A program made the translations under genes and the position numbers. From contig JAQCFW010000020.1 in NCBI GenBank assembly GCA_027619225.1, positions 1 through 33,988 of the forward strand: 33,988 nt of DNA. Reading direction: 5' to 3'. The notes beneath the pieces are model-generated. The model saw only the letters and a program-made list of their open reading frames with translations. It ran no database searches and was not told the DNA's origin. Below are positions 5,161 through 22,943 of the stretch, piece after piece; within the stretch, counting starts at the first letter, position 1, and each line of letters starts with the position of its first letter. The DNA is from Bacteroidota bacterium. GTDB lineage: Bacteria > Bacteroidota > Bacteroidia > Flavobacteriales_D > Sanyastnellaceae.

Positions 5161-5973
5161 ATGTTTACCGCAATAAAAAATCTGTTCAGATTCAGTAAAA
5201 AAGCCAAGGATAAAAACCTGTTGGTTAGCAACGATTTAAGTGTGCTAATTAGCGATGTTCACTCTCACCTTGTTCCTGGAGTTGACGATGGATCTCCTGA
5301 TATGGATACCTCTATTGCCCTGATCCGCAGACTCCAAAACCTCGGTTTCAAAAAGCTTGTAACCACGCCACATATCATGGTCGACTTGTATCCCAACACC
5401 CCTGAAATACTGAAACCTAGATTTGAAGAACTCAAGGCAGAAGTGGCAAAAAGACTCCCCCCCATAGAGCTTTTCCTTGGAGCGGAATACTTCATGGATT
5501 TAGAACTTTTAGATTTACTTTCTAAGCCCGATGAACTTCTAACATTTCCTTGCACGGACCCTTTGAATGGGAGTAAACTTGAAATGATCTTGTTTGAGTT
5601 TGCATTTCATCTCCCTCCCAATTATGACATCTTAGCCGAAATTGTTTTCAAGATGCAAACCTCTGGACTCACTCCTGTTTTAGCACATTGCGCGAGGTAT
5701 CCTTATTTCCACAAAGACAGATCTGAATTGAAAAAACTTCACTCAAAAGGCGTGATTTTAACTGTAAATGCAGCTACTCTATGTGGAAGCTATGGGAATT
5801 TAGCGAAGGAAACCGCTCTTTATGCAATTGAACAAGGTTGGGTAAGAATGGTCTGCTCAGATACACATGCTCCTCATCATATCGCAGCGGTAAAAGAACT
5901 TGAAAGCTCTCACGTTTTAGCTGAAATGATCGCATCAGGAACGCTTCTCAATCCTGGCATCGGACTCAACTAA
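5161..5973 (+). CDS. PHP-type tyrosine-protein phosphatase (CpsB/YwqE-like)
   Basis: Metal-dependent phosphatase of the polymerase-and-histidinol-phosphatase (PHP) fold. CpsB/YwqE members dephosphorylate the tyrosine kinase that controls capsule or exopolysaccharide export. The 270-residue product shows all the metal motifs: DVHSHLVPGVDDG (H34, H36), TTPHI, GAEYF, LAHCARYP and SDTHAPHH. A basic N-terminal stretch (FRFSKKAKDK) precedes the domain and no membrane segment is seen. It lies 26 nt after rfbB in the sugar operon, consistent with control of surface polysaccharide. The partner kinase is not in the window. Confidence 0.85.
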   Translation: MFTAIKNLFRFSKKAKDKNLLVSNDLSVLISDVHSHLVPGVDDGSPDMDTSIALIRRLQNLGFKKLVTTPHIMVDLYPNTPEILKPRFEELKAEVAKRLPPIELFLGAEYFMDLELLDLLSKPDELLTFPCTDPLNGSKLEMILFEFAFHLPPNYDILAEIVFKMQTSGLTPVLAHCARYPYFHKDRSELKKLHSKGVILTVNAATLCGSYGNLAKETALYAIEQGWVRMVCSDTHAPHHIAAVKELESSHVLAEMIASGTLLNPGIGLN

Positions 5974-6002
5974 CACGAATTCATAGACTTCGCACAACTA
6001 GC

Positions 6003-6317
6003 TTAACCTACAGGTGCAAGCTTAATCTCTATCCCGTCGAGCGAATCTTCTAACTTAATTTGGCATCCAAGACGGCTGTTGTCTTCTACGAAAAACGCCT
6101 CATCTAACATATCCTCTTCGTCGTCAGACCTCTCCCCTATCTCGTGAGAACTGAGCACATACATATGGCAACTCGCACACATCGCCATACCTCCACAAGT
6201 GCCCTCTACAGGAAGTTCATAGCTCTTGCAAAGCTCCATCAAATTCATGTTCATATCGGTAGGAGCATCTAACTCATGGCGTTTGTCGTCTCTATCTATT
6301 ACGACAACTTTAATCAT
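6003..6317 (-). CDS. fdx: [2Fe-2S] ferredoxin, adrenodoxin type
   Basis: A small electron carrier of 104 residues. The cluster ligands are visible as C41-x5-C47-x2-C50 and C85, the adrenodoxin/ISC-type spacing, followed by the acidic stretch SDDEEDMLDEAF that usually binds the reductase. The start MIKVVVIDRD at 6317 is chosen because it begins the beta-grasp fold; the frame is open 16 codons further upstream but through A-rich intergenic DNA. It is the last gene after fnr, nfu and mrp, so the encoded reductase is its probable electron donor. The gap upstream holds phased T-tracts (see 6336-6421). Confidence 0.9.
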   Translation of the reverse strand: MIKVVVIDRDDKRHELDAPTDMNMNLMELCKSYELPVEGTCGGMAMCASCHMYVLSSHEIGERSDDEEDMLDEAFFVEDNSRLGCQIKLEDSLDGIEIKLAPVG

Positions 6318-6335
6318 GTTCTCAGTGTAAGTCAA

Positions 6336-6421
6336 TTTATTGTAATTTTTATCGCTTTTATTCAATTTTTGACGCTTTTAAGCACTTTTTATAGCGTTTT
6401 ATGGCATTTTATCTCTTTTTT
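6336..6421. repeat. Helically phased T/A-tracts (predicted curved DNA)
   Basis: Between fnr and fdx, T-runs start at 6336, 6346, 6356, 6366, 6376, 6386, 6397, 6407 and 6416. Eight of the nine are 4-6 bases long. The spacing is ten bases almost without error, with units like atcgctttta, gacgctttta and atagcgtttt. A-tracts repeated in phase with the helix are known to bend DNA. No hairpin precedes the runs, so they do not look like a terminator. They end about 20 bp before the fdx start codon, a position suited to an upstream activating bend. Confidence 0.8.
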
Positions 6422-6433
6422 CAAAACTCAAGA

Positions 6434-7438
6434 TCACATCCCTGGAGGGCCACTAACAGTGGTGTACTTAAGAACAAGATTTTTATTTGGATAAATTCTC
6501 TTATAAGCACTTTGAACCATCAAAGTAGCTTCGTGAAAACCGCACAGAATTAACTTAAGTTTACCAGGGTAAGTATTGATATCTCCTACGGCATACACAC
6601 CGGGAATATTTGTAGAATAATCAAAGGTGTCTACCTCAATGGCGTTTTTTGAAATATTCAAGTTCCACTCTCCCAAAGGACCTAGTTTGGGACTAAGGCC
6701 AAATAACGGCACCCAGTGATCTACCTCAATATTTGACAATCCATCGGACTTGTGTTTTACTTCAACCGCGCTTAGAAAATCATCTCCCGCTACGCCTACA
6801 ACTTCAGCATTGGTCAATAGAGTAATCTTCCCCGCATCGGCAAGGTCCATCACTTTTTGAACACTGTCGGGGTGTCCACGGAAACTTGGTCGTCTATGGA
6901 CTAAAGTTACTTCAGAAGCAACATCAGCTAAGAACACAGTCCAGTCTAGAGCTGAATCTCCTCCTCCAGAGATCACCACTTTCTTTCCTCTATAAAATTC
7001 GGGGTCTTTAATGATGTATTCTACACCCTTGTCCTCAAAATCTATCAAACCCTCAACCGGCGGTTTACGTGGTTCGAAACAACCTAGACCTGCTGCTATA
7101 ACAATAATAGGAGCGCGGTGCTGCGTGCCTCTCGTGGTGGTGACAATAAACTGATCTTCATCATCTTTCTCGATGAATTCAGCCCTTTCTCCCAAAGTAA
7201 ATCCCGGGCTAAATGGCTTGATTTGTTCCATTAACTGCTCGGTCAAATCTCCTGCTAAAATAAATGGGTGAGCAGGGATATCGTAAATCGGTTTTTTCGG
7301 ATATATCTCTGAGCACTGGCCTCCAGGCTTGGGTAAAGAGTCAATTAAATGACATTTTAACTTGAGAAGGCCCGCTTCAAAAACGGTGAAGAGACCTACA
7401 GGTCCTGCTCCAATAATCAAAATATCTGTTTGAATCAT
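6434..7438 (-). CDS. Ferredoxin-NADP+ reductase, thioredoxin-reductase-like
   Basis: A cytoplasmic flavoenzyme of 334 residues that passes electrons between NADPH and ferredoxin. It has the FAD Rossmann motif IIGAGPVGL (8-16), the PGGQCSEIYP segment (38-47), an NADPH motif SGGGDSALD (157-165) followed by HRR (181-183), and the C-terminal FAD motif YAVGDINTYPGK. The CxxC redox pair of true thioredoxin reductases is absent, which places it with YumC/TrxR-like FNRs. Its ATG overlaps the nfu stop (ATGA). The ferredoxin gene directly downstream is the likely partner. Confidence 0.92.
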   Translation of the reverse strand: MIQTDILIIGAGPVGLFTVFEAGLLKLKCHLIDSLPKPGGQCSEIYPKKPIYDIPAHPFILAGDLTEQLMEQIKPFSPGFTLGERAEFIEKDDEDQFIVTTTRGTQHRAPIIVIAAGLGCFEPRKPPVEGLIDFEDKGVEYIIKDPEFYRGKKVVISGGGDSALDWTVFLADVASEVTLVHRRPSFRGHPDSVQKVMDLADAGKITLLTNAEVVGVAGDDFLSAVEVKHKSDGLSNIEVDHWVPLFGLSPKLGPLGEWNLNISKNAIEVDTFDYSTNIPGVYAVGDINTYPGKLKLILCGFHEATLMVQSAYKRIYPNKNLVLKYTTVSGPPGM

Positions 7439-7698
7439 AGGTTGATTGCTTCAATCGCTTTCACTTCTGGGGCAGCGCCTCTAATTACAGCTTCTACCCC
7501 CCCTTTCATGGTCATATCGATAAAAGAACATCCCGCACATGATCCGTGAAGTTCTACTCTTACAATTAAATCATCCGTAATTTCTTTCAGCGTAATATCG
7601 CCTAGATCAGCCTTAAGATATGGGCGAATCTCTGCAAGCGCACCTTCAATTCTCGCAGCTAATTCACTGTGGTCTTGTGACATGATTTGGTCTGACAT
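7435..7698 (-). CDS. NifU C-terminal domain Fe-S scaffold/carrier
   Basis: An 87-residue protein made of a single NifU C-terminal domain. It carries the CxxC pair C54/C57 in HGSCAGCSF, which binds a shared Fe-S cluster for transfer to target proteins. The MTMKGGVEAVI segment is typical. The usual N-terminal A-type domain of longer NfuA proteins is missing. It sits 8 nt after mrp and overlaps fnr, placing a cluster carrier between a putative cluster-loading ATPase and a redox pair. Confidence 0.9.
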   Translation of the reverse strand: MSDQIMSQDHSELAARIEGALAEIRPYLKADLGDITLKEITDDLIVRVELHGSCAGCSFIDMTMKGGVEAVIRGAAPEVKAIEAINL

Positions 7699-7706
7699 TG
7701 TGTTAC

Positions 7707-8771
7707 TTATTTTTCTAGGACTTCAAGCAAGTTAGTTACAACAACACGAAATGCAGCTGCAGCTTCAGAATCACCTTGCAATACTGCCGGGCGTCCCACA
7801 TCACCCGCTTCTCGAATGGTTTGGAGTAAAGGAAGCTCTCCCAAAAAAGGAACATCCAATGTATCAGCCAATCTCTTAACACCATCTCTACCGAAAATAT
7901 GGTATTTAAATTCGGGGGCATCAGGAGGAATGAAGTAAGACATATTTTCGACCATCCCCAGAACAGGAACATTAATAGATTCAATTTTAAACATCCCCAC
8001 ACCTTTACGAGCATCGGCAAGAGCCACGTCTTGAGGAGTAGAAACAATGACCACTCCTGTAAGGTCTAACTCACTAACTAAAGTTAAGTGAATGTCTCCC
8101 GTACCAGGTGGTAAATCGACAATCATGTAGTCTAACTCTCCCCAAACTACATCTGTAAACAATTGTTTCAAAGCTTTTGTCGCCATAGGTCCACGCCAAA
8201 CTATTGCTTGGTCAGGATCTGCGAAAAACCCGATCGACAACATTTTCACACCATGCATCTCCACGGGTTCCATCATAGATTTCCCGTTAACGTCAATCGG
8301 CTTGGGGTTGTGACCCTGGACGCCAAACATAGTCGGAATACTTGGACCATATATATCTGCATCGCAAAGCCCCACTTTGTAGCCTAATAGGGCTAAAGAA
8401 ACTGCCAAATTAGAGCTTACGGTGCTCTTACCTACCCCACCTTTTCCGGAAGCTACGGCGATGATATTCTTTACTCCAGGAAGAATTTTTCTTGTCTCAA
8501 TAGTACGTTCTTCTGCAGGAAGAGCACCTACATTCACCTCGGTTTTAACTTCTGAACCGAAGGCTCTTTCAAGTGCAAACTCAACGGCGTCTTGCATTCT
8601 CTTACGAGCGTGAAGAGCTGGATTACTCGACTTTACCTCAACTTTTATTTGCCCTTCAGAAAGGTCAATTCCAGCTATCAGGTCCAAGGACACAATGTCC
8701 TTGCCGAAGTCAGGGTCCATCACCCCACTTAAAGCGACAACTACCTTATCTTTTGTTATTTCCGATGACAT
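7707..8771 (-). CDS. mrp: Mrp/ApbC-type P-loop ATPase with N-terminal DUF59 (MIP18) domain
   Basis: A 354-residue Mrp/NBP35 family ATPase involved in Fe-S cluster loading. Residues 1 to about 85 form a DUF59-like domain. The deviant Walker A GKGGVGKST lies at 109-117, and the later motifs CDADIYGPSIPTMFG and VDLPPGTGDI are complete. Many Mrp proteins carry a CxxC near the C-terminus in the MSYF region; here that stretch reads ENMSYFIPPDAPEFKYHIFG with no cysteine, which I believe is usual in Bacteroidota. The surrounding nfu, fnr and fdx genes support an Fe-S role. Confidence 0.92.
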   Translation of the reverse strand: MSSEITKDKVVVALSGVMDPDFGKDIVSLDLIAGIDLSEGQIKVEVKSSNPALHARKRMQDAVEFALERAFGSEVKTEVNVGALPAEERTIETRKILPGVKNIIAVASGKGGVGKSTVSSNLAVSLALLGYKVGLCDADIYGPSIPTMFGVQGHNPKPIDVNGKSMMEPVEMHGVKMLSIGFFADPDQAIVWRGPMATKALKQLFTDVVWGELDYMIVDLPPGTGDIHLTLVSELDLTGVVIVSTPQDVALADARKGVGMFKIESINVPVLGMVENMSYFIPPDAPEFKYHIFGRDGVKRLADTLDVPFLGELPLLQTIREAGDVGRPAVLQGDSEAAAAFRVVVTNLLEVLEK

Positions 8772-20624: not shown

Positions 20625-22943
20625 TTAAAGTTCCGAACAACTAGCTCCATATGCTATAAGGAAACCAAGTAAATCGGCTGATCCGATTTCTCCATCCTCA
20701 TTAAAATCAAATGGACAATCGCCACCTGTACAAGGATCCATTACACAAGAACCATCATCGTTATTCGCAAACGCTACAAAGTTCTCTGCCAATGGGTCTG
20801 TACATCCTGAGAATACACAAGAACCATCTTCCGCAGTATTTACTTCTAGATAGTTATCTGCTCCCATGTAAGTACAACCTGTAGCTGTACAAGAACCATC
20901 GTCATCTGTAGCTGAAGCGTTATAGTTGTCAGCAACAGGATTCGTACAACCTGAAATGATACAAGATCCATCATCAACTAAAGCAGAAGAATCGTAGTTG
21001 TCAGCAGCAGGGTTAGTACATCCGGAGCAAGAACTGTTATCTCCTCCACAAATGCCACATTCATCAAGAACGTTTCCATCACAATCACAAGAACCATCAG
21101 CAATTCCGCCTCCACCACATACGCCACATTCATCAAGAACATTGCCGTTACAGTCACAATCTCCTGCGGGAATACCTGTACCGCCACAAACTCCACACTC
21201 ATCATCTATTGCACATGAACCATCCGCATAAATAGCCTCTGGATTATAGTTACATGCTGTAGCATCTTGACAACCAGCAATTCCTTCAGGGAAAGTCAAA
21301 ATCATTCCCTCAGCATAGTGAGATTCTAATGCTTGGTCACGAATTTGAATGTTAACTAGTGCCTGAATTTGTCCCGAAGTTGTAAACTGACCCAGTAGGA
21401 CTCTACCAGCTACAGGAACTCCTTGAGAGTTTGCGCCAGGAACAACGAAGATAGAACCTCCGATGAAAGTGTTGACTACGAAGTCGCCTCCTGTGTTAAA
21501 GTCAGCAAATGATGTTAAAGCTGCATCGAATGCACTGTTCAAGCCATCAGCGTCTCCTGGTTGAGCACCAATCGTAAACCAACTGTCGAATTCCATATTG
21601 GGGAATGAGCCGAAGAAAAGGGGGTTGATTGAACCACCGAAATCAGCTCCTACGGCATCGTTATAGAATCCATTAGCATCTGTAGCTATCATCTCCCAAG
21701 GAGCTGTATCCGTTCCATACATGGCTGTTACTTCAGCAGCATCTGCTGTCAAATTAGCATATAGGCGGTAAGTAGTAGCTCCTGTTCCCAATGGATCAGA
21801 AGAAACAACCTCGTAAGAAAGACCAGTACAAAGACCGTCTCCCCAAGCACATGAACCATCATCGTACATCGCTGAGGCATCATAGTTATCTGCATCAGGA
21901 TTCATACATCCACTGCAAGAAGAACCATCTCCGCCACAAATACCACAAACATCAGAAAGGCCACATGATCCATCGTCAATGATTGCAGATGGATCGTAGT
22001 TACACGATGATGCATCTGTACAACCTCCACAAGAAGAATTATCGCCTCCACATACACCACAGTCGTCCAACTGGTTACCATCGCAATCACAATTTCCGTC
22101 AGCTATTCCTCCTCCGCCACAAACTCCACACTCGTCAACAACGTTCCCATTACAATCACAGTCTCCGTCAGGGATGTCATAACATCCACACTCGTATATA
22201 GCCCCAGCTCCACCACAAATACCACACTCGTCTATTTCAAAAGCACACGTACCATTGTCAAGTTCTGCTGCAGGATTGTAGTTACAAGCTGTAGCATTCA
22301 TACATCCTACTTCAACTTGAGGGAATGTCATCGTTAAACCCTCTGCATAATGGCTCACACCAGCTTGATCACGAACTTGAATATTTACAAGAGCGTGAAC
22401 CTGTCCTGAGGTAGTAAACTGACCCAGCAGAACGCTACCAGCTACAGGAATTCCTTGAGAGTTAGCACCAGGAACAACGAAGATAGAACCTCCGATAAAT
22501 GTATTGACTACGAAGTCGCCTCCTGAGTTGAAGTCAGCAAAGGAAGTTAAAGCTGAATCAAATGCACTATTAAGTCCATCATCATCACCAGGTTGAGATC
22601 CAATCGTAAACCAGCTGTCATATTCTAAAGAAGGGAATGCTCCGAAGAAGAGTGGATTTACACCTCCACCGAAATCAGATCCTACAGCATCGTTGTAGAA
22701 GCCATTAACATCTGTAGCTATCATCTCCCAAGGAGCTGTATCCGTTCCATAAACGGCTGTAACTTCAGCAGCATCTACTGTAAAATTCGCGTATAAGCGA
22801 TAAGTAGCTGCGCCAGTTCCTAAAGGGTCAGACGAAACAACCTCGTAAGTAAGACCGGTACAAAGACCGTCTCCTGTTGGGTCTTGAGCGAAAAATTGAA
22901 TTGCGGAAAATAAAACGGCAATTAAAAGTATATATTTCTTCAT
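20625..22943 (-). CDS. Large repetitive secreted protein with Cys-rich repeats and dockerin-like end
   Basis: A 772-residue exported protein. Signal peptide at 1-19 ([19 protein letters not shown]). Residues about 24-224 and 368-568 are two copies of one domain, offset by exactly 344 residues, with the text [23 protein letters not shown] and DSWFTIG. Between and after them are about seven CGVCGG-type repeats (for example 270-277, 293-300, 604-611, 627-634) and eight GC...ADNYD..A..DDGSC-type repeats. The last four of these have their first Cys at 642, 666, 690 and 714, a strict 24-residue period. The end ([20 protein letters not shown], 743-762) looks like a calcium-binding dockerin-type half. 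The function is unknown. Such proteins are common in marine Flavobacteriales and are probably surface or matrix proteins. Confidence 0.85.
21240..22874 (-). repeat. Internal duplication of about 600 bp within the secreted-protein gene
   Basis: 22272-22874 and 21240-21842 encode the two domain copies, 1032 bp apart. They are strongly alike at the DNA level (for example the shared ACAAAGACCGTCTCC and AGGAACAACGAAGATAGAAC stretches), so the duplication looks recent or homogenised. Confidence 0.85.

Follow-up and report, generated by a model that had tools for sequence, protein, structure and literature searches.

A helically phased A-tract array before a ferredoxin gene of a Bacteroidota bacterium: a candidate curved leader element in register with the start codon

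Phased A-tracts, i.e., runs of adenines repeated at the helical period, are mostly treated as short upstream parts of promoters. Many such tracts in helical phase, conferring strong curvature, are present in the bent DNA of the kinetoplast (the mitochondrial minicircles of trypanosomatids). In Synechocystis promoters, the A-tracts ahead of genes are spaced by the helical period and keep phase with the start signal (PMC9825172). In Helicobacter pylori, the T-tract beside the start of sabA is a mononucleotide repeat at a known promoter; its length differs among strains and also inside one strain, and this length, relative to the helix turn, affects expression via DNA shape (PMC4081817). In Flavobacterium johnsoniae, the −7 box of promoters is preceded by AT-rich motifs at a distance of one and two helix turns, and the efficiency of translation correlates with a single A motif, i.e., adenines at positions −14 to −11 (PMC6847099).

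The locus considered here was found in a window of 33,988 nucleotides, i.e., the whole stretch of DNA analysed, where nine A-runs follow one another in the gap between the genes fnr and fdx (Table 1). It shares the multitude of phased A-tracts with the kinetoplast DNA, in which these have no relation to a start codon. Like the Synechocystis promoters, it places A-tracts of helical period upstream of a gene, but in one long array registered to the start codon, with no recognised promoter and no average comb at gene starts. The position of a repeat beside a gene start is reminiscent of sabA, the difference being that the fdx array is a comb of decamers whose variation is known only between species. 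Finally, one tooth of the comb falls on the A motif known from F. johnsoniae if translation starts at a TTG codon, and further A-runs lie upstream, each one helix turn apart. A search of a limited body of literature revealed no apparent description of start-registered A-tract arrays.

The original prediction placed the array in a tightly packed gene run, and this description holds: mrp, nfu, fnr and fdx succeed one another in this order on the minus strand, nfu and fnr overlapping by 4 bp and mrp and nfu lying 8 bp apart. The product of fnr, named after the gene pair, is probably a ferredoxin--NADP reductase. The fnr–fdx gap, bounded by the fnr stop (6434) and the fdx ATG (6317), comprises 116 bp. 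The nine T-tracts originally listed are all present, T-runs of at least three letters beginning exactly at 6336, 6346, 6356, 6366, 6376, 6386, 6397, 6407 and 6416; since the genes lie on the minus strand, these runs are A, not T, on the mRNA. They are 3–6 letters long (at least 4 in eight of the nine), with centre spacings of 9.5–11 bp (mean 10.2 bp), and thus form a phased A-tract in the usual sense of several A/T runs of about 4–6 at the helical repeat. The degenerate 10-bp unit was likewise recovered by Tandem Repeats Finder, either as such (64% matches) or as a 20-bp unit (70%).

Table 1. Coordinates of the features discussed (positions in the window)
Feature	Position	Strand	Basis
CpsB/CapC-family gene, convergent with fdx	5161..5973	+	Pfam CpsB_CapC
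fdx, 2Fe-2S ferredoxin (from ATG)	6003..6317	-	Pfam Fer2; best NCBIfam match fdx_isc, below its cut-off
fnr–fdx gap containing the array	6318..6433	-	coordinates of flanking genes
In-frame TTG, proposed fdx start codon	6333..6335	-	in 4/4 array genomes; no stop before ATG; putative
Phased A-tract array, nine A-runs (coding strand), ~10-bp spacing	6336..6421	-	run scan, Tandem Repeats Finder, shuffles
A-run with its centre at −13 relative to the proposed TTG; site of the Flavobacterium A motif	6346..6350	-	position count; motif from PMC6847099
fnr, thioredoxin-reductase-like flavoprotein	6434..7438	-	Pfam Pyr_redox_2
nfu, NifU-domain Fe-S protein, upstream in the run	7435..7698	-	Pfam NifU
mrp, Mrp/ApbC-type Fe-S carrier ATPase, upstream in the run	7707..8771	-	Pfam ParA/NUBPL

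Nine chained runs were obtained in none of 20,000 dinucleotide-preserving shuffles of the 116-bp gap (maximum 7). The longest other chain of 9–12 bp spacing in the window consists of two runs of at least 4 letters or four runs of at least 3 (A strand, two places). Hence, the statement that no similar array occurs elsewhere is correct within the window; beyond it, like arrays precede some unrelated genes (see below). In an 834-kb sample of this genome, which contains the window and covers 41% of 2.03 Mb, the array is the longest 10-bp chain, followed by one of four runs, and other spacings yield chains of up to six runs. A six-run T chain spaced by 12–14 bp lies at L238:12741-12808. In the whole 2.03-Mb genome, a strict five-run pattern matched only this array; a weaker chain of five runs of at least 4 letters with 5–7 bp between them (C34:43832-43877) misses this pattern. 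Another kind of repeat (72 bp, 2.1 copies) is located at 20871–21020 of the window, inside a 772-aa ORF (20625–22943).

Curvature was computed as the ENDS ratio of 90-bp stretches with Bolshoy-type wedge values. As anticipated, the array displayed the highest predicted curvature of both the window and the 834-kb sample, with a best ratio of 1.63 (next best in the sample, 1.57) over a background with a mean of 1.04, a standard deviation of 0.03 and a 99.99th percentile of 1.39; positions 6336–6421 by themselves gave 1.54. When spacer lengths were randomised and the runs kept, the mean ratio was 1.11 and 1/1000 variants reached the observed value, whereas shuffling of the spacer letters with runs and spacing kept gave 1.44, with 193/1000 variants as high. 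Most of the computed curvature is therefore due to the spacing, and the fdx array appears, by computation, as a strong curved-DNA signal.

Ferredoxin is present in 13 of the 14 genomes of the genus. The array occupies the fnr–fdx gap in four of them (G000, which contains the window, G006, G010 and G009), and in the other nine, the gap measures ~50 bp or less and lacks it. The array genomes form a single clade, with support of 100/98, in a tree of the reductase (FNR) built from 12 genus genomes and two outgroups, with G004 left out and G013 being without a close fnr. The four orthologs, picked by gene and not by array, were compared without gaps from the fdx ATG. Their arrays comprise 9 (G000), 12 (G006), 12 (G010) and 8 (G009) chained runs, lie at a nearly constant distance to fdx, and show Fourier periods of 10.1, 10.2, 10.2 and 10.3 bp, respectively, in a free scan over 5–20 bp. 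Across the six pairs, the A-run columns match by 62–93% (A-runs shifted by 3–6 bp as a control, 32–52%); the spacers match by 15–26% in five pairs and by 61% in the closest one, G006/G010. For comparison, third codon positions of fdx match by 64–88%. Most of the spacer matches do not exceed chance; the comb is thus preserved while the intervening letters turn over. The expectation that relatives would keep the phase with drifting sequence was thus borne out in all four array genomes and fails for the genus as a whole, where nine of the 13 genomes carry no array. The lengths of successive intervals also appeared to compensate one another (mean percentile 0.69 over 20 arrays, 14/20 above 0.5, at periods of 9.95–10.35 in a scan confined to 9.6–11.2); the jitter expected from substitutions has the same sign, so this reflects few indels rather than selection.

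The same gaps bear marks of tandem duplication, i.e., exact tandem units, seen by eye, of 10 bp in G006 and G010 and of 11 bp in G009, which together with the varying number of runs is consistent with a minisatellite: a decamer that multiplied through slippage within an AT-rich gap and is tolerated there, the phase being a consequence of the 10-bp unit and no function being involved. Perfect AAAATCAATC arrays in the genus g29, several at contig ends, would fit as well. On the other hand, a neutral decamer is expected to lose its A-runs as fast as its spacers, and the A-runs were kept better. For this and for the reasons given below (the scarcity of 12-bp arrays and the register to start codons), such an origin without function is considered a serious rival, yet an improbable one.

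A search of the order returned seven-run arrays of 10-bp period in 22/399 genomes as compared with 3/399 for a 12-bp control, the single alternative period used; two of these three are poly-A-like by eye, the third being G222. In four of the 22 genomes (L295, L296, L307, L313), the matches are coding or of low complexity; the others belong to the genera g1 (3), g29 (10), g42 (4) and g49 (1). Five-run arrays of 10-bp period were detected in 10/14 genomes of the window's genus and 7/100 in the rest of the family (12-bp control, 1/14 and 4/100), some of these matches being coding or of low complexity. Contig C31 of G003 is full of low-complexity A-rich matches, so pattern counts for that genome are inflated. 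Of 24 non-coding seven-run places, 12 have an A-strand comb leading into a start codon, i.e., that of fdx (2), truB (1), a tdk-linked gene (3), an HMA-domain gene (5) or sbtA (1); the other 12, four of them at contig ends, are not start-registered or undecidable. The longest arrays reach 15 teeth (L303). A ten-run array (L298:1407-1504) starts at the end of a gene that looks transposase-like by eye. Contig ends coincide with arrays at L310, L370, L371, L373 and L334; assembly probably breaks at such repeats, leaving their number underestimated.

The second site in the window's genus is the junction between a TRCF-domain helicase gene and truB, where visual inspection showed a strong array in G004, G005 and G011, a weak one in G002, G007 and G013, and none in G000, G006, G009, G003, G008 and G012; G001 and G010 yielded no truB. 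This comb enters the coding tail of the helicase gene (L193:1481-1575, L314:1501-1565, L173:1492-1566). The lysine-rich C-terminal tail of the helicase varies between species. Further sites in the genus include the guaB–ppiC junction in G004 and, in G006, a nine-run array between convergent genes of the 2-oxoacid dehydrogenase E2 and FtsW/RodA types (L170:1460-1545). In the genus g42, a membrane-protein gene follows that of thymidine kinase (hence tdk-linked) in 7/11 genomes. All six fully readable loci, three taken from array-pattern genomes (L332, L337, L338) and three by gene only (L333, L335, L336), carry the array, the centre of its last A-run lying at −13 or −14. In the 15 pairs formed by these six, A-runs match by 76–97% and spacers by 20–53% in 14 pairs and 89% in one. 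The seventh locus (L334), read by hand and kept outside the register counts, is a loose fit: a TTG start with A-runs at −10.5 and −21, followed by the contig end. In g29, the array precedes an HMA-domain gene in five of the best 30 loci among 75 genomes with a match (L352 being mis-anchored and L355 cut by a contig end), the last A-run lying at −10 to −12; the upstream gene is TonB-dependent receptor-like by eye. On the tree of this family, the distribution of the array requires three changes, of which well-supported branches force only one; this counts in favour of the minisatellite.

The relation of the arrays to start codons deserves separate treatment. The original estimate that the bend ends about 20 bp from the fdx start is right with respect to the ATG, 18 bp away, although the array reaches the TTG proposed as the actual start, which lies 18 bp before the ATG and abuts the last run. 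In the nearest array-less genomes, fdx starts three codons earlier, with M-D-D (G001, G002, G007, G011), M-E-N (G004) or M-E-D (G005); in G003, G008 and G012, the protein begins with M-S-N/K-D-P-N. The codon matching this earlier start is ACT (G000, G006, G010) or GTT (G009) in the array clade, i.e., within 6315–6335 of the window the upstream start has been lost. Judging from the sequences, fdx translation may begin at TTG 6335–6333. Relative to this codon, an A-run is centred at −13, −12, −13 and −12 in G000, G006, G010 and G009, respectively; with the ATG as the start, the position of the A motif is missed. The fdx frame stays open upstream of the ATG for 20 codons in G000, 17 in G006 and G010 and 14 in G009. 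A coding role of the array is unlikely, though possible for its 3′ part: by eye, the four extended frames have little in common before the TTG.

A comb tooth near −12 recurs in six unrelated families (fdx, truB, ppiC, tdk-linked, HMA and sbtA), the means per family ranging from −11.0 to −12.9 and the individual arrays from −10.7 to −13.5 (TTG start for fdx). Six random phases would fall into so small an arc with P = 0.0014 (fdx from TTG) or 0.013 (fdx from ATG), and the five families without fdx with P = 0.006; since the families were chosen for an array next to a start, these probabilities concern the phase only. A register common to unrelated genes is not expected of a minisatellite. In the window's own genome, the frequency of A before 357 genes amounts to 0.53 at −11 and 0.41 at −12 (around, ~0.32), and no average 10-bp A comb was found at its gene starts. 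A genome-wide comb was rejected: a second A-run at −22 accompanied one at −12 in 8/56 cases (14%), compared with 11% of all 319.

These findings bring forward an explanation at the RNA level, namely that a repeated, unstructured A-box, located in the mRNA between the cistrons or in the leader of fdx, loads ribosomes, e.g., via protein S1, and raises fdx translation over that of fnr; the spacing of 10 nt may then equal the binding size of an RNA-binding protein. The A-runs, recognised on the coding strand, lie on it at six start-registered junctions. A tooth sits on the −14 to −11 motif (PMC6847099), and the own genome has its A peak at −12/−11. Moreover, most start-registered arrays are situated between co-directional genes and reach near the start, and 191/200 shuffles fold at least as well as the fdx leader. 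Still, A-richness alone requires no comb of ~10.2 nt with GC-containing spacers, and a similar comb with T on the coding strand exists upstream of sigma54-like sites (see below). The explanation is, accordingly, a serious yet rather unlikely one.

That the array marks a promoter of its own for fdx, as originally suggested, was not supported: no canonical core promoter was found in the gap by a test of little power, with just 25 TAnnTTTG matches in the final 40 bp upstream of 189 genes with long gaps. The TAnnTTYG box is absent from the 80 bp before the fdx ATG, the rest of the gap being inspected by eye. A single sigma70-like pair occurs at the gap (TTGACT/TAAAGT, 6335–6307); transcription from it would begin within fdx, and pairs of this kind are no commoner than in shuffles (4 observed vs. 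6.1). As the array reaches the proposed start codon, little space is left for an intervening promoter. A classical promoter hidden in the gap, the array serving as an AT-rich (UP-like) stretch upstream of it, would agree with the F. johnsoniae architecture outlined above and with the presence of TAnnTTYG within 80 bp in 23/95 distinct fdx upstream regions (8 on the reverse strand; 14 of the 23 boxes within 45 bp of the fdx start). None of the 23 boxes belongs to the array clade, and this option is regarded as very improbable. Other readings of the locus were discarded as well. No Rfam family scored above threshold in 5900–7500, and a known RNA element was represented by a single sub-threshold miRNA match (6986–7049). 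The sense strand shows, by eye, no surplus of C of the kind expected of a Rho utilisation site. A single conserved operator is unlikely, the non-A part of the unit differing, by eye, between genera.

A different geometry emerged at three of ten further loci (L304, L372 and L374, of the genus g29 in another family), where the array is T on the coding strand of the nearby gene and ends 5–6 bp before TGGCA[CT]N5TTG, which we take to be a sigma54-like site; by eye, these loci are partly homologous. No such site was seen at the other seven (L301, L302, L305, L308, L310, L371, L203). Lying upstream of the sigma54-like site, the T-strand array is probably outside the mRNA of that gene. Sigma54 is among the alternative sigma factors of F. 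psychrophilum (PMC9723704).

Taken together, the period and the conservation of phase point to DNA, the strand, place and register to translation, and the tandem units to the birth of the arrays. The reading ranked first, tentatively and at slightly below an even chance as far as sequence comparison can tell, is that of a maintained, curved, start-registered leader element setting the expression of the downstream gene; the RNA-level enhancer, the tolerated minisatellite and the hidden classical promoter follow in this order. In the curved-leader reading, the nine helically phased A-tracts would curve the DNA of the fdx leader, and the array would be a maintained cis element of fdx. The curvature might act on fdx transcription within the mrp-nfu-fnr-fdx run by favouring the wrapping of RNA polymerase or a nucleoid protein at the fnr–fdx junction, so that fdx could be expressed apart from fnr. 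With a start at the TTG, the A-run 13 nt upstream would double as the flavobacterial A(−14..−11) initiation motif, which would anchor the comb to the start codon. The counts for 10 vs. 12 bp, the computed curvature, the conserved phase, the register and the T-strand loci of g29 argue for this curved leader, without raising it above a nearly balanced proposition. It is opposed by the lack of a core promoter in the gap and of an average comb at the own gene starts, and by the A on the coding strand at start-registered arrays, which curvature alone does not require. Half of the non-coding places are not start-registered, and most of the genus manages without the array at fdx. Duplication makes such arrays, as the exact units of G006, G010 and G009 and the perfect arrays of g29 illustrate. 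Further points against are the G006 array between convergent genes, the weakest ortholog pair (G010/G009, A-run match of 0.62 vs. 0.52 in the shifted control) and the fact that the curvature is a computed one. Regarding the curved-DNA control point for ferredoxin first proposed, its computed curvature, conserved phase and alignment to fdx have stood, its promoter has not, and its uniqueness holds for the window only.

On a broader scale, start-registered phased A-tract arrays may constitute a hitherto undescribed regulatory module of Flavobacteriales which has arisen repeatedly before unrelated genes and, combining curved DNA with a serial translation-initiation signal, sets the output of downstream genes in operons; this generalisation is speculative and somewhat doubtful. 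The arrays sit inside gene runs and match start codons across unrelated genes and genera. If the sigma54-like sites are promoters, the arrays preceding them can only act as DNA. The helical phase kept despite sequence turnover represents a natural experiment separating shape from sequence, and the loci collected here offer a set for testing DNA curvature against leader RNA as a means of expression control in bacteria without Shine-Dalgarno signals.
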